A stretch of 64,000 nt of DNA, taken from Pelomonas caseinilytica (lineage in GTDB: Bacteria; Pseudomonadota; Gammaproteobacteria; Burkholderiales; Burkholderiaceae_C). Position numbers and translations under genes: made by a program. This document shows, piece by piece, positions 16,522-28,602 of the stretch; the stretch's first letter is position 1; every line of letters starts with the position of its first letter. The stretch lies in contig NZ_JAJTWT010000002.1 in NCBI RefSeq assembly GCF_021353235.1, positions 496,001-560,000 on the forward strand, read 5' to 3'. Under the pieces are notes generated by a model, which was not told the DNA's origin, searched no databases, and saw only the letters and a list, made by a program, of their open reading frames with translations.

Positions 16522-17268
16522 TCAGAGGCCTTTCAGGGCCCGAGTCACCGCTTCAGGGTCCGGTCGCGCCAAAACCACAGGAGCGAAACCTGCCGCGCGG
16601 GCCGCTTCGGCGATGCGCCGATGGGTGGCGATGGCGCGCTGGCCGGCCAGGGCCAGGCCCTGCAGATGGCCCACGGCTTCGGCGCTGCTGAAGAGCCAGG
16701 CATGGCCCGCCGGATCGGCCTGCACGCGGGCCAGCAAGGCCTGCTCGGCGGCGTCCAGCCGGGGCCCTGTGCGGTGGTAAACCGTAACGGCCTGAACCTG
16801 CGCACCGGCCTGCGCCAGGCGCTCGGCCAGCCACTCCCGGCCGCCATCGCCGCGCAGCACCAGCACGCGGGCGCCGGCCCAGTCGCGCCGCGGCTCCAGC
16901 CGGGCCCACAGGTGTTCGGAATCGAGGCTGGCGGCGTCGGCGGCGGGCTGGACGATCCGTTCCGCCGGCACGCCGTGCTCAAGGAGGGCCTGGGCGCTGC
17001 CGGGGCCGACGCAAGCCGCCAGCGTGCCCGGCGGCCAGCCGGCGCCCTCGGCGCGGGCGAAGAACTGCTCGACGGCGTTGGGGCTGACGAAGACGGCCAG
17101 GTCCGTGTCGGGCAGCCCGGCCCAGGCGGCATGCACGGGGCCGGCGTCGCGGGCTGGCAGGATCTCGATCAGCGGCAGCGCCGCCGCGTCGACCCCCAGC
17201 GCGGCCAGCCGCGCGAGCCAGGCCGCGCACTGGGCACGCGGCCGGGTGACGATCAGCTTGACGGTCAT
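16522..17268 (-). CDS. hemD: Uroporphyrinogen-III synthase
   Basis: A 248-residue uroporphyrinogen-III synthase, which closes hydroxymethylbilane into uroporphyrinogen III with inversion of ring D. Sequence conservation in this family is low; recognised parts are the N-terminal [14 protein letters not shown], the [12 protein letters not shown] motif, and [32 protein letters not shown]. Start at 17268 overlaps the hemC stop (ATGA, 17265-17268). Position directly after hemC confirms the call. Confidence 0.93.
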
Positions 17269-18191
17269 CCGGGCAGGTAGGAGCCAGCGCCCAGCTCGTG
17301 CAGGCGCTGCGCCGCCTGCTGGCCGAGGCTGCGCGCCGCGGCGACGTCGCCCACGGCGGCCGCCACGCTGGAGCGCAGCAGCGGCGAGGCGTGCAGCTCG
17401 GCGTGGCCGAGCGCCGCGTCCAGGCACAGCGTGCTGCCCTGCCAGTGGGCATGGGCGGCCAGCGGCAGGCTGCAACTGCCGCCAAGGGCCCTCGAGACGG
17501 CGCGCTCGGCTTCGCAGGCGAGCAGCGTCGGCGTATGGGCCAGCCGGCCCAGGGCGGCGGCCAGGCCGGCGTCGTCGGAGCGGATCTCCAGGCCCAGCGC
17601 GCCCTGCCCCGCGCAGGGCAGCATCTGGCCGACGTCGAAAAGGGCCCGCACGCGGGCGCCCAGGCCCAGGCGCTTGAGCCCCGCGGCGGCCAGGACGATG
17701 GCGTGATAGCCGCCCTCGTCGAGCTTGCGCAGCCGCGTGTCGAGGTTGCCGCGCAAGGGCTCGACGCGCAGGTCGGGCCGCAGGCTGAGCAGCTGCGTGA
17801 CGCGGCGCAGGCTGGAGCTGCCGACGACGGCGCCCTCGGGCAGCTCGGCCAGCGAGGCGTAGTCGTTGGAGACGAAGGCGTCGCGCGGGTCTTCGCGCTC
17901 CAGCACCGCGGCAAGCATGAAGCCCTCCGGCAGCTCCATCGGCACGTCCTTGAGCGAGTGCACCGCGAGCTGGGCGCGGCCGTCGGCGAGGGCCGCTTCC
18001 AGCTCCTTCACGAACAGGCCCTTGCCGCCGATCTTGGACAGGGTGCGGTCCAGGATCTGGTCGCCGCGTGTCGTCATGCCCAGCAGGGTGGCGCTGACGC
18101 CGAGTTCGCGGGCCAGGCGGTCCCGTACATGTTCGGCCTGCCACAGCGCGAGGCGGCTCTCGCGCGTGGCGATCGTGATGGAATTGCTCAT
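17265..18191 (-). CDS. hemC: Porphobilinogen deaminase (hydroxymethylbilane synthase)
   Basis: A 308-residue enzyme that polymerises four porphobilinogens into hydroxymethylbilane. The N-terminal [17 protein letters not shown], the catalytic aspartate region (AVHSLKDVP), arginine-rich substrate-binding SSSLRR and RGNLDTRL, and the [10 protein letters not shown] motif are all visible. The cysteine that carries the dipyrromethane cofactor is C240 (GGSCSLP). The start at 18191 ([10 protein letters not shown]) matches the family; a longer form from 18230 lacks conservation. First gene of hemC-D-X-Y. It is divergent from a small monooxygenase-like gene, with 53 bp between starts. Confidence 0.97.
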
Positions 18192-18244
18192 GCTCCGATT
18201 ATCGAGGCGGGACAATCGGCCGGAATCCAAAGGAGGAGGCTTCG

Positions 18245-18562
18245 ATGATCGTCACGGTGTTCCGCTCCCGCCTCAAGGACGATGCCCGGGCCGATTATTT
18301 CGACCTGGCCCCGCAAATGAGCGCACTCGCCCGCACCATGCCAGGCTACCGCTCCCACAAGGTCTTCATGGCCGAGGACGGCGAACGGGTCATCATCGTC
18401 GAGTTCGAGGACGAGGCCAGCCAGCGCAACTGGTCGCTCAACGCTCTGCACGTGGACGCGAAGAAGCAGGGCCGCGCCAACTTCTACGCCGAGTACACCG
18501 TGCAGGTCTGCGAGGTGCTGCGGGAGTCGCGTTTCAAGACCGGTCCGGCCGACGGCTCTTGA
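18245..18562 (+). CDS. Antibiotic biosynthesis monooxygenase (ABM) domain protein
   Basis: A 105-residue single-domain protein with the ferredoxin-like dimeric alpha/beta-barrel pattern of ABM-fold proteins: [12 protein letters not shown], a helix with [35 protein letters not shown], then [13 protein letters not shown]. Some family members are cofactor-free oxygenases or heme-degrading enzymes; the sequence does not say which. A very good ribosome-binding site (AAAGGAGGAGG) precedes the ATG. It faces hemC on one side, and its 3' end overlaps the 3' end of the halogenase fusion gene by 29 bp on the opposite strand. Confidence 0.85.
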
Positions 18563-20768
18563 AGAAGGCGTTGACGGTCAGCCGGCCCAGGCCGGCCCGG
18601 TAACCCGCCGGGTTGTCGGCCCAGCGGATGTCGCCGGAGTGGAAGATGCCGCCGTCGTAGAAGATGGCCCGGTTCCACCGGGCCGGCACGCGGCCGATGA
18701 CCTCGAAATACGCGTTGCTCTCGGTCATGTAGCCCGGCGCCAGGCCGTACTTGTCGCCGAAGGCGCGAGGCTCCAGGGCCTGCGCGTCCTGGCGCAGCTG
18801 CCGGACCTGTTCATCGGGCACCCGCGGACGGAAGAACACGGTGCCGCCCAGGCTCTCGTCCTTGAAGAGGTAGTGCACGCAGGCCGACATCGCCTCCGCC
18901 GGGTCCAGCCCCGAGTCGTCGCGGTGGCAGATGCGCTGGCGCGCGTCGAGGCTGGCCGGATCCTGCACGACGCGCGAGAAGCGCGCGAACATGCCGAGCG
19001 GGGCGCCGAGACGCAGCGGCTCGGCCAGTTGCCTGCGGAAGAATCCGTCCAGTTCGGCGGCCAGGCTGTCCGGCAGCCCGAGCTGCGGGCCGGGATAGGG
19101 CTGGCCCGGCATGGCCTTGAACTGGTCCGCCGTGGCCTGCGCCAGCGCGACCAGCGCCTCAGGGTCCTCGGCGAAGTCGTCGACGACGAAGACCTTGGCG
19201 CTATCGGCCAGGGTCAACACCTCGACCCGGGCGCGCGGGTTGATGCGCAGCGCGGGCACGGCCGCCGACGGCGTGGCCACCGGCAGCTTCGCTGCGGGCG
19301 CGAACTGCTGGATGAACTGCTGGTGCCGGGGCAGCTTCATCAGCGTGCGGGCGATGTCCTTGCGGATCTCGCCGAGGAAGTCCGCCAGGCTGCGGTCGTC
19401 CATGTTGCGCGTGATGGGATGGTGGCTGGCCGGGGTGATGCCCTGCCCCATCATGACCAGCACCCAGGAGTTCTCGGCGAACAGCTCGCCCTGGCGCAGC
19501 ATGACCCGGGCGGTGTCGCGGAAGTGCTGGATGCGGTGCGCCAGCAGCGGCGGCACGTCCATGGCGCGGCAGTCGCGCCAGAAGGGCGAGTCGTCGCGGT
19601 CGGTGACGTGGTAGTGCAGGATGATGAAGTCGCGGATGACCTCGATGGCCTCGCGTGACTGCTGGTTGTACTCGTCGACGTCGCTCTGGCGGATGCCGTC
19701 GGTGGGGAAGAGCTCGACGAGGCGGCTCATGCCCTTCTGGATGAGGTGGATGCTGGTGGATTCCAGCGGCTCCAGGAAGCCGCTGGACAGGCCGATGGCG
19801 ACGCAGTTGTTCTTCCAGACCTGCTCGCGCTGGCCCGGCGTGAAGCGGATGACCCGCGGCTCGCGCAGCACCTCGCCCTGGACGTTGGCCAGCAGCGCGG
19901 CCTTGGCCTCGTCGTCGCTGACGTGGCGGCTGCTGAAGACGACGCCGTTGCCGACGCGATGCTGCAGCGGGATCTGCCACTGCCAGCCCCAGGGGTGGGC
20001 GATGGAACGGGTGTAGGGCACGGGCTCGCCGACCGAGGTCGTCTGCACGGCCAGGGCGCTGTCGCAGGGCAGCCAGTGCGACCAGCTCTCATAGGGCACG
20101 CCCAGCGTCTGGCCGATGAGCAGGGCCCGCATGCCGGTGCAGTCGATGAAGAAGTCGCCCTCCAGCAGCGGCCCGTCCTGCAGCTGCAGGCCGGTGATGT
20201 CGCCGCTGGCGGCATCGGTGCGGACCTCGGCGATCTTGCCCTCCAGGCGCTGCACCCCCATGGCCTCGGCCATGCGGCGCAGGTACTGGCCGTAGAGCGT
20301 GGCGTCGAAGTGGTAGGCGTAGTTGATGCCGTTGTCGGGCAGGGTGGCGAAGCGCTTGTCCAGGGCCGCGCGCAGCTCCAGGCAGTAGTCGCCGTAGTCG
20401 CTGGCCAGGCCGCGGCGGCGCCCCTCCAGCCAGAAGTGCTGGAAGCCCGCCGTCCAGTGGCCCTTGCCGGTGCGGCCGAAGGAGTGGAAGTAGTGCTGGC
20501 CGACGTTGCGCCAGTTCTCGAAGTGGATGCCGAGCTTGAAGGTCGCCTGTGTGGCCTGCACGAACTCGCGCTCGTCCAGGTCCAGGATCTCGTTCATCAA
20601 GTGCAGCGTCGGGATGGTGGCCTCGCCGACGCCCACCGTGCCGATCTCCTCGGACTCGACGAGGCGGAAGTCGTACTGCCGGCCCAGGCACTTGGCGAGA
20701 CCCGCCGCCACCATCCAGCCGGCGGTGCCGCCGCCGGCGATGACGATGCGCTTGATCGGTTTGTTCAT
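18534..20768 (-). CDS. Flavin-dependent tryptophan halogenase-family protein fused to a C-terminal DUF6445-like domain
   Basis: A 744-residue protein with two parts. Residues 1 to about 485 form a flavin-dependent halogenase: FAD-binding GGGTAG (12-17), the catalytic lysine K78 (ATFKLGIHF), the WxWxIP motif (262-267, WQWQIP) and the active-site glutamate E336 followed by S337 (EPLEST). After a Pro/Ala linker (485-510), residues 511-744 resemble DUF6445, a family usually encoded as a separate gene next to such halogenases. This part has an HxD at 615-617 and a later histidine at 710 (GIFHSGD), a possible Fe(II)/2-oxoglutarate site. Last gene of the cluster TonB receptor > halogenase > SapC > cupin-like > this gene. 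Substrate unknown. No flavin reductase is nearby. Confidence 0.88.
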   Translation of the reverse strand: MNKPIKRIVIAGGGTAGWMVAAGLAKCLGRQYDFRLVESEEIGTVGVGEATIPTLHLMNEILDLDEREFVQATQATFKLGIHFENWRNVGQHYFHSFGRTGKGHWTAGFQHFWLEGRRRGLASDYGDYCLELRAALDKRFATLPDNGINYAYHFDATLYGQYLRRMAEAMGVQRLEGKIAEVRTDAASGDITGLQLQDGPLLEGDFFIDCTGMRALLIGQTLGVPYESWSHWLPCDSALAVQTTSVGEPVPYTRSIAHPWGWQWQIPLQHRVGNGVVFSSRHVSDDEAKAALLANVQGEVLREPRVIRFTPGQREQVWKNNCVAIGLSSGFLEPLESTSIHLIQKGMSRLVELFPTDGIRQSDVDEYNQQSREAIEVIRDFIILHYHVTDRDDSPFWRDCRAMDVPPLLAHRIQHFRDTARVMLRQGELFAENSWVLVMMGQGITPASHHPITRNMDDRSLADFLGEIRKDIARTLMKLPRHQQFIQQFAPAAKLPVATPSAAVPALRINPRARVEVLTLADSAKVFVVDDFAEDPEALVALAQATADQFKAMPGQPYPGPQLGLPDSLAAELDGFFRRQLAEPLRLGAPLGMFARFSRVVQDPASLDARQRICHRDDSGLDPAEAMSACVHYLFKDESLGGTVFFRPRVPDEQVRQLRQDAQALEPRAFGDKYGLAPGYMTESNAYFEVIGRVPARWNRAIFYDGGIFHSGDIRWADNPAGYRAGLGRLTVNAFFKSRRPDRS

Positions 20769-20871
20769 ATTCAGTTGTCCAAGGTGCTTGGCACGGCCAC
20801 CCGCGGCCCATGAAACCGGTGTATTGCGGGCCGAGCGCTGGGCCGCTCCCGAGCCGGCCCGCGCTGGCGAT

Positions 20872-20898
20872 GTGCTTGCGGCTCAATGCCGCAAGCAC
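20872..20898 (-). repeat. Intergenic hairpin between cupin-like gene and halogenase fusion
   Basis: The 202-bp gap (20769-20970) holds no gene. It contains an 11-bp perfect stem (GTGCTTGCGGC / GCCGCAAGCAC, loop TCAAT), then a 6-bp GTCCCC/GGGGAC stem, then GC-rich imperfect repeats ending in GGGTGGGCGAGG, next to the stop of the cupin-like gene. It resembles repetitive extragenic hairpins and could terminate or stabilise the transcript before the last gene of the cluster. Confidence 0.55.
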
Positions 20899-20970
20899 CG
20901 CCGTCCCCGAGGGGGACCGACCGGACTCGCTCGCGTTCAGCGATGCGAGGGTGGGCGAGGGGCTCATTCA

Positions 20971-21951
20971 TTAGCGATTCAGGCGGTTGCGCAGCATGGC
21001 GCGCAGCTGGCGGGCGCTGTGCTCGTTCATCGGCGCGAGGACGCCGCGCGCCGAGGGCGGAATGTGGGCGGCGGTGGTCTCGTCCGCATCGAAGACGTAG
21101 TGGTCGAACAGCGCCCGCCAGGCGTCGCGCTGGGCGGGCGGCAGGTCGCGCAGCGACAGCAGGGCCAGCATCAGCGTGTTGAGCGGCGTGTCCATGAAGC
21201 CGGGCGACTGGCGCCACCAGAAGTTGACCAGGGCGTTGATGGGCTCCAGCGACTCCACCCCATGCCACCACTGGCTGGGGATGAAGAGGGCGTCGCCGGG
21301 TTCCAGCTCGAAGACCTGGGCCTGCTCCAGCGCCTGCGCATAGCGCGGAAAGCGCTCGAGGTCGGGCCGGGCGTGGTCGACCAGGCTGACGGGCTGGCCG
21401 GCGGGCGTGAGGTCCAGCGGGCCGATGTAGAGGTTGGCGACCTGGTCGGGCGGGAAGAGTGTGAAGCGGCGCCGTCCGGCGACGACGCAGGCGACGTTGT
21501 CGGGCAGGTCGAAATGCGTGGCCACCTGCATGCGGTTGCCCAGCCACAGGCTCACCAGCGGATCGAAGCGGTCCACCTCGGGCAGCGGGTGGCTGGCGCG
21601 CAGGCCGGGGAAGGCGGCGTCGAGCTCCGTGGAGCCGAGGTAGAGGGCGTCGTCCGAGCCGGCCAGCAGTTCGTCCAGCAGCGCGCCGAACGGAGCGTTC
21701 TCGCGGTGGAAGTTGAAGCCGCTGAGGTCGTCGTTGTAGAAGAATCGCCCGCCGATCTCCGGCCCGCCGCGCCAGACGCCGAGTTGCGTGGACGGCGCGA
21801 AGCCGCGCAGGTAGTCGCAGAAGTCTGCGACGGAGCGCCCGGCCGCCTGCACCAACGGCCAGTGCTTCACCAGCCCCGGCAACAGCACCGGCCGCGTCGA
21901 ATGCAGCACGTCGTCCGGAATGGCGGTGCCGGCGTCTGGGCGGACGGTCAT
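20971..21951 (-). CDS. Cupin-like (JmjC-type) Fe(II)/2-oxoglutarate oxygenase domain protein
   Basis: A 326-residue protein of the cupin_8 / JmjC-like family. It begins with a typical element (RPVLLPGLVKHWPLVQA), has the first metal-binding pair HxD in THFDLPDNVACVVAG, the FTLFPPDQ strand, the acidic ELEPGDALFIPSQWWHGVESL turn that supplies the distal histidine, and FWWRQ. The motif set predicts an iron and 2-oxoglutarate dependent oxygenase. Homologues are regular partners of TonB receptors, SapC and tryptophan halogenase genes. It starts 4 bp after the sapC-like stop, so translation is probably coupled. Substrate unknown. Confidence 0.87.
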   Translation of the reverse strand: MTVRPDAGTAIPDDVLHSTRPVLLPGLVKHWPLVQAAGRSVADFCDYLRGFAPSTQLGVWRGGPEIGGRFFYNDDLSGFNFHRENAPFGALLDELLAGSDDALYLGSTELDAAFPGLRASHPLPEVDRFDPLVSLWLGNRMQVATHFDLPDNVACVVAGRRRFTLFPPDQVANLYIGPLDLTPAGQPVSLVDHARPDLERFPRYAQALEQAQVFELEPGDALFIPSQWWHGVESLEPINALVNFWWRQSPGFMDTPLNTLMLALLSLRDLPPAQRDAWRALFDHYVFDADETTAAHIPPSARGVLAPMNEHSARQLRAMLRNRLNR

Positions 21952-21955
21952 CGGC

Positions 21956-22654
21956 TCACGCTTCCCGGGCGAGGTGGCGCTTGATCAGCGCCCTGAAGTT
22001 GGACAACGAGGCCAGGGCCATGTAGATGGGCATCAGGTAGTCGGCCTGGTGCAGCAGGGCCACGGCGCCGGCGTCCAGGGCCGCCAGCCGGTCCTCGTTG
22101 ATGATGGAGAAGCCGAGCAGCTGGCCGTGGCTGCCGTCGGGCCGCTCGACGTCGAGGGTGAAGGGCTCGAGCAGATCCTGGGCCACCAGCGTCTCGACGA
22201 ATTCGGCCGTCGCCTGCAGGCCTTCGTGCAGGGTGCGCAGCACGGCATTGGCGTTCTCGGTGAAATCGGTCGTGCCGCCGTGCGGCAGGAAGACGGCCTC
22301 GCCCTCGGCGCCCCGGCCGATGCGCCTGCTGGACATGTCCACCAGCATGCGCAGCTCGTCGCCCTCGGCCACGCCGATGGAGAAGGGCATGCGCTGCACG
22401 GACAGCGGCAGGTAGTCGGCGTCCCAGCCCTCGTCGGTGAGGAAGAGGTTCTGCCCTTCCTGCAGGCCGAAGAGCACGACCGGCAGGAAGCTGCCCTTGC
22501 CGTCGGGCTGGAAGACGATGGGGTAGTGGGCCTGGAGCTTGCGGAATTCGTCCAGTGTGACGGGGGCGGACATGAAGTCGTCGCCCCATTGCGCGCCGCG
22601 CCGGGTGACGATGCGCAGATCCTTGTGCTGGATGTTGTTGAGCAGTTCGAGCAT
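21956..22654 (-). CDS. SapC family protein
   Basis: A 232-residue member of the SapC family (named after a Campylobacter S-layer locus, but mostly found next to TonB-dependent receptors and halogenases). Recognised parts are the early HYPIVFQP, the LFGLQEGQNLFLTDEGWDADYLPL core and PFSIGVAEGD. It has no signal peptide or membrane helix, so is predicted to be cytoplasmic. Function unproven; the constant association with TonB receptor/halogenase clusters suggests a role with the imported substrate. Lies 17 bp after halogenase 2 and 4 bp before the cupin-like gene. Confidence 0.87.
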   Translation of the reverse strand: MLELLNNIQHKDLRIVTRRGAQWGDDFMSAPVTLDEFRKLQAHYPIVFQPDGKGSFLPVVLFGLQEGQNLFLTDEGWDADYLPLSVQRMPFSIGVAEGDELRMLVDMSSRRIGRGAEGEAVFLPHGGTTDFTENANAVLRTLHEGLQATAEFVETLVAQDLLEPFTLDVERPDGSHGQLLGFSIINEDRLAALDAGAVALLHQADYLMPIYMALASLSNFRALIKRHLAREA

Positions 22655-22671
22655 GGCGTTCGGAGGGAGGA

Positions 22672-24228
22672 TCAGTGCGACGGCGGCAGGCCGTGCGCGC
22701 GGATGTGGTCGATGAGGTCGCGGTGGCGCGGCAGCCCGCCCAGCAGGCGCCGGGTCATTGTCGTCACGTCCTTCATGCAGGAGCGGGCCGCCGCCAGGCG
22801 ATCGGCGCTCAGGGGTCGCAGCGCGGGAGCGAACTGCATGCCGTAGAGGACGTACTGGTAGCTCGCCGCGGGGAAGACTTCCTCGGTGCGGTAGAAATCG
22901 TTGCGCGACGGCAGGCGGTGGGCCCAGAGCTGCAGCAGCTCGCGCAGCGATTCGGGCTGGCTGGCCATGCTGCGGTGCTCGCGCCAGTAGTCGGCATCGT
23001 CGCGGCGGCTGAGCACGTAGTGCAGCTTGAGGAAGTCGATGACCCGCGACCAGCGGTAGGCGAAGGCCTCGTTGAAGCGTCGGGCGACCAGGTCCATGTC
23101 GTCACGGCCGGCCGGCATCTCGTCGCGGATGAAGGCGGCAGACAGCTCGACCAGGGCCAGGGCCGAGGCTTCCAGCGGCTCGATGAAACCGGCAGCCAGG
23201 CCGACGGCGACGCAGTTGCGATGCCAGAACTTGTCGCGGTAGCCCGGGCTGAAGCGCAGCCGGCGCGGCGTCGCCCCGGCGGCCTCGAGGCCGCAGCGCC
23301 CGATATAGGCCTGCAGCGCCCGCTCAGCCGCGTCGTCACTGGTGTGGCCGCTCGAATAGACCAGGCCGATGCCGCGCCGCGTGGGCAGGCCGATGTCCCA
23401 GGTCCAGCCTTCGGCATGGGCCGTGGCGATGGTGGCCGAGGCGAGCGGCGCCTCCGGCGCGGCGTGCGGCACCTGCACGGCCAGGGCTCTGTCGTTGAAG
23501 AGCACGCCCCGCTCGGAGCGCAGGCCGATGCCGTAATGCTGGCCGAGCAGCAGGCTGGCCAGGCCCGAGCAATCGATGAAGAGTTCGCCCTCGATGTCGC
23601 CGTGGGCACGGGTCGAGAGCGCAGCGATGTCGCCGTTGTCGTGCGAGCGCACGGCGATGAAATGGTCGACCACGTGGCGCACGCCCAGCCGCGCCGTCGC
23701 ATGCCGCTGCAGCAGCTGGCCGAGCTTGACGGCATCGAAGTGGTAGCCGTAGTTGACGACGCCGCCGAAATCCGGCGTCGTGGTCTGCTTGGGCGCCAGC
23801 TGGGCGTCGCAGAGCTGGGGCTGCGGCCCGACGCTCTCGGCGAAGGACTGCGCGCGGCCGTCCTGCAGCCAGGCGGCGGCCAGCTCGGCCTCGCCAAAGC
23901 CATGGGGCAGCGTGAAGGGGTGGTAGTAGCGGTCGCCGGCGGCGCCGTGCAGCCAGCCATCGAAGCGCGAGCCCTGCTTGAAGGCGGCATCGCATTCGCG
24001 CACCAGGTCGACCTCGCTCAGGCCGATGCGGTGCAGGGTGGCACGCATGGTCGGCCAGGTGCCCTCCCCCACGCCGATGGAGGGAATGTCGGGCGATTCG
24101 ATCAGCGTGAACTGCAGCGCGCCGGGCGTGTCACCGCCCAGTTCGGCGGCCAGGGTCGCGGCCGTCAGCCAGCCGGCCGACCCGCCGCCTAACACCACGA
24201 TGCGTCGCACGCCTGGAGTGGAATTCAT
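22672..24228 (-). CDS. Flavin-dependent tryptophan halogenase-family protein (second copy)
   Basis: A 518-residue halogenase-family protein without a C-terminal extension. It has FAD-binding GGGSAG (14-19), the catalytic lysine K84 (AAFKQGSRF) and the active-site glutamate E353. Two positions differ from canonical halogenases: the WxWxIP motif reads WTWDIG (275-280), and the residue after the glutamate is alanine (PLEASA, where LEST is usual). It may therefore use a different halide or substrate, or have another flavin-dependent activity. The start at 24228 gives the Rossmann motif near the N-terminus; the longer frame to 24363 lacks conservation. It follows the TonB receptor by 138 bp that include a strong hairpin, and is 17 bp before sapC. 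Confidence 0.87.
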   Translation of the reverse strand: MNSTPGVRRIVVLGGGSAGWLTAATLAAELGGDTPGALQFTLIESPDIPSIGVGEGTWPTMRATLHRIGLSEVDLVRECDAAFKQGSRFDGWLHGAAGDRYYHPFTLPHGFGEAELAAAWLQDGRAQSFAESVGPQPQLCDAQLAPKQTTTPDFGGVVNYGYHFDAVKLGQLLQRHATARLGVRHVVDHFIAVRSHDNGDIAALSTRAHGDIEGELFIDCSGLASLLLGQHYGIGLRSERGVLFNDRALAVQVPHAAPEAPLASATIATAHAEGWTWDIGLPTRRGIGLVYSSGHTSDDAAERALQAYIGRCGLEAAGATPRRLRFSPGYRDKFWHRNCVAVGLAAGFIEPLEASALALVELSAAFIRDEMPAGRDDMDLVARRFNEAFAYRWSRVIDFLKLHYVLSRRDDADYWREHRSMASQPESLRELLQLWAHRLPSRNDFYRTEEVFPAASYQYVLYGMQFAPALRPLSADRLAAARSCMKDVTTMTRRLLGGLPRHRDLIDHIRAHGLPPSH

Positions 24229-24332
24229 GACGGTGAGTATGGCCGGCGGCTGGCGTTCCCGCCCCGCACGGCCAGGGGAGTCCTGCAAAACAAGCTGGCC
24301 GAGGCGGACATGGCTGCCCGCCCCGGCCAAGG

Positions 24333-24356
24333 CGCCGCCCGGCAAGCCGGGCGGCG
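24333..24356 (-). terminator. Strong hairpin after the TonB receptor gene
   Basis: An 11-bp perfect stem (CGCCGCCCGGC / GCCGGGCGGCG) with a 2-nt loop begins 10 nt downstream of the receptor stop codon. There is no T-run, so it may act as a partial (attenuating) terminator or as a 3' end protecting the receptor mRNA, giving more receptor than halogenase. Function inferred. Confidence 0.45.
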
Positions 24357-24366
24357 GGGTCATCGA

Positions 24367-27300
24367 TCAGAAGCGGTAGCGGGCACCGATCAGGTAGCGG
24401 CGGCCGGTCTGGAGGGCCGAGACCAGCATCTCGTTCGTGCGGCCGTGTTGACGGATGTAGCCGTCGTTCAGGTTCAGCAGATCGAGTTGCAGGGTCAGGT
24501 TGCTGCCGAGCTTGTAGCCGATGGACGCATCCACCTGGCCGTAGGGCTCGGTGTAGACCGGGTTGTTGCCGTTGCCGTCGCTGGTCGCCGCGAGGAACTC
24601 GCCGCGCCAGTTGTAGGCCGCGCGGATGGACCAGACGTCGTTCTCGTAGAAGCCCACCAGGTTGGCCGAGTCGCTGACGCCCAGCAGGGCTGCCTGCTGG
24701 TCGGTGCGCAGGTTGTTGAACTTCAGGCCCGTCTTCACCTTGGTGTAGTTGCCCGACACGCCGAAGCCGCTGCGGCCGAACATGTGCTGGAAGTTCAGCT
24801 CCAGGCCCTTGATGTTGTCGCCAGGCCCGTTGGTGAAGGTGGTGACCTTGAACGGGATGGGCGTGGCACCCGGCACGGCGCTGGTGATGGTCCCTGCGAC
24901 TTCCGCGGCGTCCAGCGGCCCCGTTGCCGTCACGCCCGGCTGGCCGTTGTAGTTGCGGAAGATGTAGTTGCGGATGCACAGCGGCTGGGTGTTGCCGCCG
25001 CAGGCCGCCAGCGCCGCGTTGTAGTAGGTGCCGCTGGCCGGGTTGAGAATGCCCGGCACCGTCGCATCGACGCTCGACGTGGTGACGAAGTTGCTGACCT
25101 TCTTGTAGAACAGGCCCAGCGCCGCGTAGCTCGACTTGGCGTAGTAGTACTCGGCCGACAGGTCGAAGTTCTTGGAGCGCAGCGGCTTGAGCGCCGGATC
25201 GCCGGTGGAGCCGGTGCCGCCGCCGTTCGGGTTCGCCGTGCCGCCCAGGCTCAGGCCGCCCTGCATCTGGTTCCAGCCCGGCCGGCCGATGTTCTCGCCG
25301 TAGCTGGCGCGCACCTTGAGGTTCTCGGCCAGGTCGGCATCCCAGTCGATGCTGGGGAGCCAGTAGGAGTACTTGCCGGACTTGGTGCCGAAGGTCGTGC
25401 CGCCCGAGGCGAGGTTGATCTCGTTCTGCGAACCCCAGGTCGTCGTGCCCGAGTGGTCGACCACCTGCGAGGAGGACTCCACCTTGGTGCTCTCGTAGCG
25501 CACGCCCACCGACAGGTTCATCGGGATGGCCGTGTCGAAGGCGTGGTCCCACTGACCGTAGAGCGAGCTGGACTTCTCCGTGGCGCGCCAGTCGTCGCCG
25601 CGGGTGTAGTCGCTGGCGGCGGCAAAGTAGGCCTCGGCCTGGGCCTGCGTCATCCCCGGCGTGTTCGCCTGCTTGATCTTGACGGCGCGGTCGCGGAGGC
25701 TGGCGAAGTCCGCCATGTAGAAGGACGGGAACAGGCGCGGGTCGTCGTGGCCCGGGATGCGGCTGAAGAAGCTGCTCAGGCTGTAGGTACCCGTGTTGAT
25801 GCCGGCGAACTGGCCCAGCGACGGTGCGACGCCGCTCCAGTCGTTGTTCTGGTTGTTGTAGCTGGCGGAGCGGTTCTTGGTGCGGGTGAAGCCCAGGCCC
25901 GCCAGCAGCTTGTCGTCGGTGCCGAGGCGGTAGGTGCCACGCGTCTGGAACTGGTCGACCGTCTGATCGCTGAGGTTGTTGCGGAACTGCGTGCCGGTGA
26001 CGTTCAGCTTGGTGTCGTCGAACTTCTGGCCGGGCAGGCTCAGGATCGGGAACTTCTGGTCGTAGTAGGCCGTGGCATTGCCCTGGTTGAACATCGCCAA
26101 GTCCATCGTGCTGTACGTGCCGTAGGGGCTGTCCGGCGTGGTCTTGGCGTTCGAGTGGTGGGCGTCGAACTCCAGGCGCAGCGCATCGCTGACCTTCCAA
26201 TCGGCATTGAAGCCGGTGGAGTTCAGCTTGGACTTCTGGGCGTACTGGCCGGTGTTGAGGGCCAGGTCGTGTGTGCCGTCCCAGATGGCCGTCTGGACGA
26301 TGGGCGCGGCGACGGGGCCGGTGGTGAACTGCGTGGCCGGGTTGGTCTTGAGATCGCCGGAGAACGAGTTGTTGAACCAGCTCGACATCTCGGCGTTCTT
26401 CGAGTGGAGCGTGTTCATCGCCAGCGTGTGGTCGAGGGTGAACTTCAGCTCCTTGCTCGGCGCGAACTGCAGCGTCGCCTGGCCGTTGATGCGCTCGCGC
26501 TCCATGCCCGTCAGCGAGTAGCGCAGCTCGCGCGAGGTCGCGTACAGGCCCGCGGGGTTGTTGACGATGTTGGACGCCGGGCTGACCGACTTCACCGCCG
26601 GATCGTTGGTGCCCCAGCCGTTCTGCGTGTAGGCCTTGTTGGAGCCCGAATCGCGCTTGGAGTAGCTGCCGCTGATCGAAATGCCGATGGTGCGGTTGGC
26701 GAAGGTGTCGCTGTAGATGCCGGAGACTTCCGGCGTGGTCTTGCTGCCTTGCAGCGGGCCCGGCAGGCGGCCGACGGAGGCGTCGTAGTTGGCCTTCACG
26801 CCGATGCTGGCGATGCGCTCGCGCACGTCGAGCGGGCGGGCCGTCTTGACGTTGATGGTGGCGCCGATGCCGCCGGTGGGCGACTCGGCGCGGGCCGTCT
26901 TGTAGACCTCCAGGGCGGCAATCGAGTCGGACGACAGGTTGGCGAAGTCGAAGGCACGCGAGCCGTTGGCGCCGGCGCCTTCCCAACCGATGACGGCGGT
27001 AGGCATCTGGCGGCCGTTGAGCAGCACCATGTTGAAGTCGGGGCCGACACCGCGGACGGTGACCTTGGAGCCTTCGCCACTGGCCGAACGGTCGATGGAC
27101 ACGCCGGCGATGCGCTGCATCGACTCGGCCAGGTTGGTGTCGGGGAACTTGCCGATGTCCTCGGCGACGATCCCGTCGACCAGGCCGCGAGACTCGCGCT
27201 TCAGCGTGACAGCGCTGTCAAGGGACTTGCGAATACCCGTGACGACGACGGTCTCCAGCGACGTGGGCGACGAGGCGGCTCCCGCGGGGGCTGCGGCGCC

Positions 27301-27426
27301 GGTCTGCTGCGCCTGGGCGGCAGCCGCCCCGGTCAGCAGCGCGATCGAGGATGCCCATGCAACGGGCTTGAGCCGCTGTGCGAGCTGCCCCCCCCGCCGG
27401 GTCTTGGAAATCTGAGGGTGTTTCAT
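24367..27426 (-). CDS. TonB-dependent outer-membrane receptor
   Basis: A 1019-residue receptor: signal peptide (about 1-46, ending AAAAQAQQ), a TonB-box-like start of the plug (SLETVVVTGIRKSLDSAV), plug domain with DGIVAEDIGKFPDTNLAESMQRIAGVSIDR and VRGVGPDFNMVLLNGRQMP, then a long beta-barrel ending in the terminal phenylalanine typical of outer-membrane proteins (IGARYRF). The IGKFPDTNLAESMQRI pattern places it with the large Caulobacter/Xanthomonas-type receptors often dedicated to carbohydrates. Start at 27426 chosen for its AAGGAG ribosome-binding site; ATG at 27444 has none. Leads the halogenase cluster. Two LacI-type operators lie upstream. Ligand unknown. Confidence 0.93.
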   Translation of the reverse strand: MKHPQISKTRRGGQLAQRLKPVAWASSIALLTGAAAAQAQQTGAAAPAGAASSPTSLETVVVTGIRKSLDSAVTLKRESRGLVDGIVAEDIGKFPDTNLAESMQRIAGVSIDRSASGEGSKVTVRGVGPDFNMVLLNGRQMPTAVIGWEGAGANGSRAFDFANLSSDSIAALEVYKTARAESPTGGIGATINVKTARPLDVRERIASIGVKANYDASVGRLPGPLQGSKTTPEVSGIYSDTFANRTIGISISGSYSKRDSGSNKAYTQNGWGTNDPAVKSVSPASNIVNNPAGLYATSRELRYSLTGMERERINGQATLQFAPSKELKFTLDHTLAMNTLHSKNAEMSSWFNNSFSGDLKTNPATQFTTGPVAAPIVQTAIWDGTHDLALNTGQYAQKSKLNSTGFNADWKVSDALRLEFDAHHSNAKTTPDSPYGTYSTMDLAMFNQGNATAYYDQKFPILSLPGQKFDDTKLNVTGTQFRNNLSDQTVDQFQTRGTYRLGTDDKLLAGLGFTRTKNRSASYNNQNNDWSGVAPSLGQFAGINTGTYSLSSFFSRIPGHDDPRLFPSFYMADFASLRDRAVKIKQANTPGMTQAQAEAYFAAASDYTRGDDWRATEKSSSLYGQWDHAFDTAIPMNLSVGVRYESTKVESSSQVVDHSGTTTWGSQNEINLASGGTTFGTKSGKYSYWLPSIDWDADLAENLKVRASYGENIGRPGWNQMQGGLSLGGTANPNGGGTGSTGDPALKPLRSKNFDLSAEYYYAKSSYAALGLFYKKVSNFVTTSSVDATVPGILNPASGTYYNAALAACGGNTQPLCIRNYIFRNYNGQPGVTATGPLDAAEVAGTITSAVPGATPIPFKVTTFTNGPGDNIKGLELNFQHMFGRSGFGVSGNYTKVKTGLKFNNLRTDQQAALLGVSDSANLVGFYENDVWSIRAAYNWRGEFLAATSDGNGNNPVYTEPYGQVDASIGYKLGSNLTLQLDLLNLNDGYIRQHGRTNEMLVSALQTGRRYLIGARYRF

Positions 27427-27502
27427 TTGTCTCCTTACTGACATGGCCGGCTCTGAAGTGAGCCGAGTGATGACGACTTTTGTAGGCCTGCCGTGTGCCG
27501 AT

Positions 27503-27516
27503 TGGTAGCGTTACCA
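27503..27516. promoter_or_regulatory. Putative LacI-family operator (proximal)
   Basis: TGGTAGCGTTACCA: 5-bp inverted arms TGGTA/TACCA flank a core with the central CG step typical of LacI/GalR-family operators. It lies 77-90 bp upstream of the TonB receptor start codon, where a repressor would block transcription. No lacI-type gene is in the window, so the regulator must be encoded elsewhere. Confidence 0.55.
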
Positions 27517-27766
27517 GCTTCCCTCAAAAAAAGAGTTGCCAGCCCAATCGCCCGACGTACTGTATTTTTTTGCCCTGCCCCGTCCTCCTGGGGTTTACGC
27601 GAGTTGAGTCTGGCGATTTGCGCAATCCACAACACCAGTCGGAACGCGCCTTTTCAGGCGTGGTGCAGCGCTGGCGGAGCCCTGTGAACCCGCCGTTGGG
27701 GTAAGCGTTGGTAGCGATCTCAGCAACGATGTTACTGACCGCGCAATTCACCGGCAGAACTCAAAT

Positions 27767-27780
27767 TGACAACGCTGTCT
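27767..27780. promoter_or_regulatory. Putative LacI-family operator (distal)
   Basis: TGACAACGCTGTCT: arms TGACA/TGTCT with one mismatch and a central CG, about 340 bp upstream of the receptor start. The half-site sequence differs from the proximal operator, so a different regulator is possible. It is 130 bp beyond the stop of the response-regulator gene. Confidence 0.4.
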
Positions 27781-27909
27781 AAGATATCCCAAACGATGAG
27801 GGGATTCAATCGCCACGGGTGTTGTGGTTTTCCCGGAAGTCGCCAAGCAAGGGTCGGCCGCCGAGTGGTGCTGCGGCCGGGCGACGCCGATACGCGGGCC
27901 CCTGCCGTG

Positions 27910-28602
27910 TCAGGCCGCGTCGAGCCGGTAGCCCACCCCGTAGACCGAGGCGATGCATTCCTGCGGCGGGTCGAGTGCGGCGAGCTTGCGGCGGATGTTC
28001 TTGACGTGACTGTCGACGACCCGGTCCGAGACGTCGCGGAAGTCCTCGTGGATGAGGTCCAGCAGCTGCGCCCGCTCGAACACCCGCCCGGGATGCTGCA
28101 GCAGCTGCCGCAGCAGCCGGAACTCCACCGGCGTCAGCGACAGGGCCTGCTCGTGCCACAGGATGCGCTGGCCCGCCTCGTCCACGGCGAAGCCGCCCGC
28201 CGCCGGCACCAGGGTCACCGGGGCGAGCCGCCCCTGCGCTCGGCGCAGCAGCGCCTTCACCCGCGCCACCAGCTCCCGCGGGCTGAAGGGTTTGCAGACG
28301 TAGTCGTCGGCGCCCAGCTCCAGGCCGAGCAGCCGGTCCAGCTCCTCGACGCGGGCGCTGTTGATGAGGATGGGCACGTCGCTGAAGGCACGCACAGCGC
28401 GGCAGACCTCCAGGCCATCGAGCCCGGGCAGCATCACGTCCAGCAGCACGGCGGCCGGCATGGGGCCGGTCCTGAGCCGCTCCAGCGCGAGGCGCCCGTC
28501 GGCGAGCCATTCGCTGCGAAAGCCCGCGGCATGGAGGTAGTCGCGCACCAGGGCCGCGAGCTTGGGTTCGTCCTCGACGACGAGGATGAGTTCGGCGCTC
28601 AT
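27910..28602 (-). CDS. OmpR/BaeR-family response regulator
   Basis: A 230-residue two-domain response regulator. The receiver has the acidic pair in VVEDEPKLAALV, phospho-acceptor D55 (LLDVMLPGLDG) and K in VCKPFSPRELVARV; the usual TAR switch segment reads SAR. The C-terminal OmpR-type winged helix has LTPVEFRLLRQLLQHPGRVFERAQLL and VVDSHVKNIRRKLA...SVYGVGYRLD. The pattern is close to BaeR (envelope stress/efflux). It overlaps the kinase stop by 4 nt (ATGA, 28599-28602). Whether it controls the TonB cluster downstream or the divergent peroxidase is not shown. Confidence 0.93.
   Translation of the reverse strand: MSAELILVVEDEPKLAALVRDYLHAAGFRSEWLADGRLALERLRTGPMPAAVLLDVMLPGLDGLEVCRAVRAFSDVPILINSARVEELDRLLGLELGADDYVCKPFSPRELVARVKALLRRAQGRLAPVTLVPAAGGFAVDEAGQRILWHEQALSLTPVEFRLLRQLLQHPGRVFERAQLLDLIHEDFRDVSDRVVDSHVKNIRRKLAALDPPQECIASVYGVGYRLDAA

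Follow-up and report, generated by a model that had tools for sequence, protein, structure and literature searches.

Gene Content of the Locus

The window, a 64,000-nucleotide stretch of the Pelomonas caseinilytica genome (contig NZ_JAJTWT010000002.1, positions 496,001 to 560,000), carries five genes on one strand in an operon-like order: a TonB-dependent receptor, a flavin-dependent halogenase (referred to as the second halogenase), a SapC-family protein, a Cupin_8 protein and, in last place, a gene that joins another flavin-dependent halogenase to a DUF6445 domain (Table 1). No scaffold-building enzyme was found among these five genes. The fusion gene is a single unbroken reading frame that opens with ATG and contains no internal stop, and its third-position GC content is alike across the domain junction (0.98/0.98/0.93). 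Both halves are complete at the profile level, the Trp_halogenase match covering profile positions 1–457 of 458 and the DUF6445 match spanning all 224 positions of its profile, and the GxGxxG, catalytic lysine, WxWxIP and glutamate signatures are all found in the halogenase half.

Table 1. Genes of the receptor-to-fusion run and features of the fusion protein (window coordinates).
Feature	Position	Strand	Evidence
TonB-dependent receptor, TIGR01782 type, 1025 aa	24367..27444	-	TIGR01782, 613 bits vs cut-off 310
Second flavin-dependent halogenase, 563 aa	22672..24363	-	PF04820, E 7.1e-116
SapC-family protein, 232 aa	21956..22654	-	PF07277, E 3.5e-65
Cupin_8 (JmjC-like) protein, 326 aa	20971..21951	-	PF13621, E 2.4e-68
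Fusion gene, halogenase + DUF6445	18534..20768	-	744 aa ORF, Pfam, residue check
Flavin-dependent halogenase domain, residues 7-457	19398..20750	-	PF04820, E 4e-189; phmmer 6y1w, E 2.7e-206
Catalytic lysine K78	20535..20537	-	Present; kept in 24/24 fused rows
WxWxIP motif, residues 262-267	19968..19985	-	Present in sequence (WQWQIP)
Glutamate E336	19761..19763	-	24/24 fused rows
Pro/Ala linker, disordered part, residues 498-503	19260..19277	-	pLDDT <50, full-length model
DUF6445 domain, residues 511-736, predicted Fe(II)/2-oxoglutarate oxygenase	18561..19238	-	PF20043, E 3.9e-61; AF2 pLDDT 94.6; Foldseek
HxD motif H615-R616-D617, predicted iron ligands	18918..18926	-	H and D in 72/73 domain rows
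H710, predicted third iron ligand	18639..18641	-	73/73 domain rows
R729, predicted 2-oxoglutarate carboxylate anchor	18582..18584	-	73/73 domain rows

The initial annotation had described a complete halogenase, identified by K78, WQWQIP and E336, followed across a Pro/Ala stretch by a DUF6445-type domain with HxD at 615–617 and H710. All of these residues lie where it placed them, the Pfam search assigns the two halves to the expected families, and the junction is indeed Pro/Ala-rich and partly disordered in the structural model. The pTM of 0.68 of the full-length model (pLDDT 90.1), taken with its disordered residues 498–503, suggests that the tether between the domains is probably flexible. 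A frameshift or missed stop as the source of the fusion was ruled out by the unbroken frame and by the presence of both domains in one frame in 28 ORF entries over 118 sources, which also excludes a sequencing error at the junction.

Distribution and Genomic Setting of the Fusion

These 118 sources comprise 80 loci kept from 85 relatives identified in a genome-contig scan, 37 further loci and the window. Besides the 28 ORF entries carrying both domains, they contain 45 DUF6445 ORFs without a halogenase. Approximately 24 of the 28 fused entries are distinct (L001 duplicates the window, and L035, L036 and L037 appear to duplicate L057, L039 and L055), and two loci counted among these, L043 and L056, come from one strain. 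The 23 fused loci other than the window are recorded as Roseateles, Pelomonas or Paucibacter, or as metagenome-assembled genomes under the names Roseateles, Burkholderiales, Comamonadaceae or Methylotenera. From one profile match to the other, the linker measures 17–30 residues in all 28 entries, and in the aligned fused rows W262, W264 and I266 of the WxWxIP motif are kept in 24/24 and P267 in 23/24. Found in about 24 distinct loci and forming one clade in both domain trees, the halogenase–DUF6445 fusion is genuine.

Two genome surveys placed this arrangement in a broader frame. Family-wide, DUF6445 was detected in 27 of 200 genomes, and five of the 34 listed places are halogenase fusions, with open frames of 747–802 aa and a halogenase match just upstream in a frame of equal length. 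Class-wide, it occurred in seven of 369 genomes at eight places; the sole fusion among them is that of the window, the open frames at the other seven measuring 136–407 aa. DUF6445 was not found in the 14 control genomes of both surveys. That DUF6445 is a separate gene in related loci, as stated in the initial annotation, is supported, and in ten loci studied in detail this gene lies close downstream of a halogenase. A different fusion partner, TPR repeats, was seen in three loci (L030–L032).

The gene run upstream is well conserved. The receptor precedes the fusion in 23 of the 24 fused loci, the remaining one (L059) beginning at the edge of its stretch; SapC and Cupin_8 are likewise present in 23 of 24 (L056 has neither), and the second halogenase in 13. 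From the Cupin_8 stop to the ATG of the fusion, the distance is 5–24 nt in 20 of the 22 loci besides the window that carry the two genes, the exceptions being L071, where the genes overlap by 4 nt, and L058, where they are 236 nt apart; in the window the gap of 202 nt is occupied by a dispersed repeat. Based on this spacing, we infer that the run is co-transcribed. Receptor, SapC, Cupin_8 and halogenase occur together in 43 of 81 loci (the 80 kept loci and the window), and in 18 of these 43 DUF6445 is absent from the fetched stretch.

No precedent emerged from open-licence PMC papers. As far as the retrieved portions of these papers extend, no halogenase–DUF6445 or halogenase–2OG fusion was found. 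Searches combining SapC with tryptophan halogenase, or the latter with the terms TonB-dependent, cluster and cupin, returned no paper. The papers matching tryptophan halogenase with TonB-dependent did not, by their titles and the beginnings of their abstracts, concern the present system, and those matching SapC, Pass1 and TonB were unrelated by title. The available part of PMC8269204 mentions neither TonB nor cupin and uses "fused" for ring systems only.

Relationship to Known Flavin-Dependent Halogenases

The closest solved relative of the halogenase half is Xcc4156 (6y1w), which aligns to it over residues 4–503 (phmmer E 2.7e-206); BrvH (6frl) aligns over residues 5–494 (E 1.5e-134). The Xcc4156 chain likewise ends in a Pro/Ala stretch, at the position of the fusion linker. 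Unlike the fusion, however, the Xcc4156 and BrvH chains (523 and 511 residues) end there and lack a second domain. In the accessible text of PMC7336383, the native substrates of both enzymes are stated as unknown and free tryptophan is not acted upon; indole is thought not to be the natural substrate of BrvH, according to the portion available of PMC5945002.

Tryptophan halogenases of the PrnA/RebH type have the catalytic lysine, the glutamate and WxWxIP in common with the fusion, as seen for PrnA in the alignment, but the PrnA match is weaker (E 3.6e-86 versus 2.7e-206 for Xcc4156). The PrnA alignment ends at query residue 416, while 8fov, 2wet and 7ju0 reach residues 481–487, so the C-terminal tail alone does not separate tryptophan halogenases from this group. 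Flavin halogenases joined to a second domain are on record, as in KrmI-ThiF and XanH-flavin reductase (PMC8407142) and the halogenase-methyltransferases AoiQ/Dia5 (PMC13301986); to the extent covered by the retrieved sections of these papers, the partner differs from that described here and is not an iron/2OG oxygenase.

DUF6445 as a Candidate Fe(II)/2-Oxoglutarate Oxygenase

An AlphaFold model of the domain built from 26 sequences (pLDDT 94.6, pTM 0.91), together with Foldseek, predicts a double-stranded beta-helix fold. Comparison with the PDB gave 89 matches at E ≤ 0.001, of which OGFOD1 (4nhy) was the best (E 6.1e-6), followed by SnoN and EvdO2. Judged by title or, for a few, by what is known of the enzyme, 48 of the best 50 of the 89 are Fe(II)/2OG-class enzymes; the other two (3bvc and 2rg4) are both uncharacterised. 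Query-normalised TM-scores are modest, at 0.37–0.50 for the best 50 of the 89. The predicted fold and an HxD...H...R arrangement, the pattern of the Fe(II)/2OG superfamily, are common to DUF6445 and to OGFOD1, SnoN, EvdO2 and the algal prolyl 4-hydroxylase 3gze, although the identity is only 10–16% among the Foldseek matches listed and no profile match accompanies it.

The putative active site is strongly conserved. In an alignment of 73 domain rows, four of them duplicates, H615 and D617 are kept in 72, the remaining row (L008) being truncated at that place, and H710, R729, N699 and R700 are kept in all 73. The role of R729 as the 2OG anchor is presumed by analogy with the superfamily.

A sequence-level tie to known 2OG families was sought by profile methods and not found. 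The DUF6445 profile gave no significant match against the PDB (best E 0.35), a Pfam search matched a 2OG family in none of 26 DUF6445 members, and hhalign of DUF6445 against 2OG-FeII_Oxy_3 was not significant, one of the sets holding only nine sequences. A faint H-x-D alignment obtained with hhalign was given zero weight because the set contained wrong-frame ORFs, and the hit of the TPR-fused relative L030 to 2OG-FeII_Oxy_3 (E 0.0045) stays below the family cut-off. No paper on DUF6445 was found in the open-licence PMC search.

Taken together, the AF2 model, the Foldseek matches and the invariant residues make it very probable that DUF6445 belongs to the Fe(II)/2OG oxygenases, and the dioxygenase-like character first proposed for it is thus borne out at the level of predicted structure. 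In SyrB2-type Fe(II)/2OG halogenases, the Asp of HxD is replaced by Gly or Ala. Such an identity was rejected for DUF6445, since all 72 rows readable at this position have D617; with this Asp retained, the site would most likely be of the hydroxylase type.

Ancestry of the Two Halves

In the two trees built for each half, the fused rows come out as a single clade. For DUF6445, support was 98 in a tree of 68 of the 73 rows (omitting the partial L008 and the duplicates L001 and L035–L037) and 100/98 in a tree of 48 rows, from which long, partial, duplicate and near-identical rows had been removed. For the halogenase, it was 99 in a tree of 108 rows, cleared of eight duplicate or short-context loci and of hits below 380 residues, and 100/99 in a tree of 66 of those rows.

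The neighbours of the fused clade differ between the two halves. The halogenase half groups with seven unfused halogenases of the Roseateles/Mitsuaria type and next with Bowmanella (support 100/98). None of the seven sister halogenase loci has an adjacent DUF6445, and each of the seven genomes has one elsewhere. In Bowmanella, a DUF6445 gene adjoins the halogenase, yet it falls in another DUF6445 clade than the fused domains. Grouping the Bowmanella DUF6445 with the fused domains was rejected by the AU test (p 7.7e-5), as was the same grouping with the Cellvibrio-type pairs added (p 8.8e-5). The nearest relative of the fused DUF6445 domain comes from a Rhodoferax metagenome-assembled genome (L093), in which the halogenase nearby belongs to another lineage; joining that halogenase and three like it with the fused ones was also rejected (p 2.9e-6). 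These p-values are optimistic, the groups having been named after quick trees were inspected.

The tests thereby reject an origin in which the halogenase simply merged with the gene beside it, as paired in Bowmanella or Cellvibrio. The disagreeing trees indicate that one halogenase lineage has been paired with two DUF6445 clades, once by adjacency and once by fusion, and since the halves derive from different gene-pair lineages, the fusion re-paired them. The fusion is a conserved, re-paired enzyme of single origin that ends a receptor gene run.

Bowmanella, Massilia, Pseudoxanthomonas, Cellvibrio and others have an unfused DUF6445 gene close downstream of a halogenase. The genes are close together in the nine adjacent pairs read in detail and in L119; six of the nine pairs are in the same frame, four of these directly across one stop codon. 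Such pairs are scattered over several halogenase lineages, with at least seven label changes in the 108-row tree and six in the 66-row tree.

Genomic Partners of Standalone DUF6445

Across the 200 family-wide genomes, a strong halogenase was found in 17 of the 22 genomes that have a strong DUF6445 and in 16 of the 178 that do not (p 1e-11 by Fisher's test, a value that ignores kinship). The halogenase and DUF6445 counts come from two scans taken to cover one set of 200 genomes. The cut-offs were E ≤ 1e-90 for PF04820 and E ≤ 1e-40 for DUF6445, with at most seven candidates scored per genome, and they drop five of the 27 DUF6445 genomes (G396, G407, G486, G520 and G537). In the other five of the 22 genomes, the PF04820 matches are no more than weak (E 1.7e-6 to 2.6e-4), and DUF6445 is of a standalone clade. 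These five genomes, along with the 18 of 43 cassettes without DUF6445 in the fetched stretch, show that neither DUF6445 nor the halogenase-containing cassette needs the other.

Seven loci of that standalone clade were examined, four of them from the five halogenase-poor genomes. In six, a SIS protein is followed by GH3, MFS, a fourth protein and DUF6445, then a convergent receptor; in the seventh (L175), GH3, MFS, the fourth protein, the receptor and DUF6445 share a strand, and the SIS gene lies outside the fetched stretch. Gene names derive from L128 and partly from L176, the remaining loci having been matched to the L128 proteins. In L128, NagA and beta-N-acetylhexosaminidase exceed the NCBIfam cut-offs, NagB-II (the SIS protein), AmpG (the MFS protein) and GH16-like (the fourth protein) stay below them, and the receptor is TIGR01782. 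The whole looks like an N-acetylglucosamine or chito-oligosaccharide locus.

In 32 standalone DUF6445 loci for which a wider context was available, the fetched stretch contains a TonB receptor in 25 and a halogenase in 15; for the 20 retrieved by DUF6445 family search, the counts are 13 and six. This collection is non-random, nine loci having come from a halogenase-containing query and L173–L176 having been chosen as genomes without a strong halogenase. Neither partner is present in seven of the 32 (L118, L121, L125, L126, L129, L132 and L133). These figures make the receptor the more frequent partner of DUF6445, though not an obligate one.

Two single loci may be recorded here. The second DUF6445 of the P. 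caseinilytica genome, whose match starts 84 bases past the end of the window beside a GGDEF gene, is among the seven loci with neither partner. In Duganella (L117), the upstream receptor best matches siderophore receptors, below the cut-off.

Proposed Function and Alternative Explanations

With some reserve, we favour a bifunctional halogenase/hydroxylase whose target is tied to the TonB receptor. Flavin-dependent halogenases are established to work through HOX, and the N-terminal half, being of the Xcc4156/BrvH type, would convert FADH2, O2 and halide into HOX for attack on an electron-rich aromatic group. Across the flexible Pro/Ala linker, the DUF6445 Fe(II)/2OG oxygenase, most likely a hydroxylase, would bind iron through H615, D617 and H710, with R729 predicted to anchor the co-substrate. 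Both activities would most likely serve a receptor-linked target, which may be an imported ligand or else a protein or peptide belonging to the receptor system. It is plausible that the two halves share a single target.

The initial annotation had proposed that both domains act on the same molecule, for example by halogenation and then hydroxylation. In this model, the halogenase would mark the aromatic ring of one small-molecule substrate, which DUF6445 would then hydroxylate. The occurrence of the fusion in one clade of 24 rows and the recurrence of unfused adjacent pairs across several halogenase lineages are consistent with such a scheme, but we regard it as doubtful, given that DUF6445 also occurs without a halogenase in N-acetylglucosamine-type loci (five of the 22 DUF6445 genomes have no strong halogenase, and four of the five were seen with such a receptor-linked locus) and that the five-gene run offers nothing that would build a scaffold. 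The halves also differ in history. The sister halogenases do without the domain at all seven of their loci despite its presence elsewhere in each genome, and the fused DUF6445 groups apart from the gene that adjoins the nearest paired halogenase. The evidence for a small-molecule pathway hardly exceeds that for a receptor-directed one. The latter may take the form of a protein- or peptide-directed module, in which the halogenase(s), Cupin_8 and DUF6445 modify the TonB receptor or a partner protein and so tune uptake. The receptor counts (23 of 24 fused and 25 of 32 standalone loci, versus 15 of 32 for the halogenase) point in this direction; moreover, protein hydroxylases occur among Cupin_8/JmjC-like proteins, and OGFOD1, the top fold match, is one as well. 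We nevertheless consider this module rather unlikely: no such modified protein is known, a substrate cannot be read from a fold match, the fetched stretch contains no receptor in seven of the 32 standalone loci, and we know of no natural flavin halogenase that acts on whole proteins, an engineered one being reportedly the subject of PMC9775415.

The two domains may alternatively act on different molecules and be fused for joint dosage only, like other operon fusions. This is unlikely, for although the genes are already neighbours in unfused relatives and the linker is disordered and variable in length, the pairing of one halogenase lineage with two DUF6445 clades exceeds what dosage alone would lead one to expect. 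A DUF6445 that is dead, or whose role is structural or that of a scaffold, is highly improbable; no close characterised relative was found, which would suit such a role, but the four predicted active-site residues are invariant in every readable row. The most far-reaching version of the favoured receptor-linked reading, that an oxidation module adds both halogen and hydroxyl groups to some protein or peptide in the TonB system with no small natural product involved, DUF6445 being a new family of protein hydroxylases, is a very unlikely one.

Implications

For the Xcc4156/BrvH-like halogenases, described in the accessible part of PMC7336383 as lacking a known native substrate, the fusion provides a new functional handle. 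Together with the conserved gene run and the N-acetylglucosamine-type DUF6445 locus, it narrows the search for the target to one linked to a TonB receptor and names the genes to knock out, while DUF6445 gains a predicted activity that can be tested. The fusion would also offer a natural template for cascade enzymes of the halogenase/hydroxylase kind and, if the protein-directed reading were true, it would mean enzymatic protein halogenation in bacteria.

A dispersed repeat upstream of the fusion gene

The gap between the Cupin_8 gene, which encodes a JmjC-like protein, and the halogenase-DUF6445 fusion gene holds a repeat of about 190 bp, with a folding z of -4.6 as DNA and -3.8 as RNA. At least 42 matches to this repeat were found in the same genome, with 40 of 217 candidates scored, and it was present in all 20 genomes of the genus searched, with at least 25 to 43 matches per genome (40 candidates scored in each). 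In an Rfam search of window positions 17000-28000, the repeat included, nothing reached the gathering score. A partial copy also occupies the corresponding gap in the related locus L058.

Features and their coordinates
Feature	Location	Strand	Remarks
Dispersed repeat, ~190 bp	window 20775-20965		between Cupin_8 and fusion gene; strongly folding
Second DUF6445 gene, divergent	L118 7021-7716	-	same genome as the window; downstream of a CHASE-PAS-GGDEF gene

DUF6445 and halogenase genes beyond the fusion

The genome's second DUF6445 gene, whose profile match starts 84 bases beyond the window end, lies downstream of a CHASE-PAS-GGDEF gene. Among related loci, TPR repeats and DUF6445 share one protein in L030, L031, and L032, representing a second type of fusion for this domain. 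In L068, L070, L074, and L086 the coordinates place halogenase and DUF6445 in the same frame, parted by one stop codon alone. A TonB receptor adjoins the standalone DUF6445 gene in each of the seven N-acetylglucosamine-type loci examined (L120, L128, L130, and L173-L176), L175 being the sole one with a different gene order.

Trp_halogenase-type places number at least seven in the window's genome (7 of 42 candidates scored), and further ones may exist beyond these.
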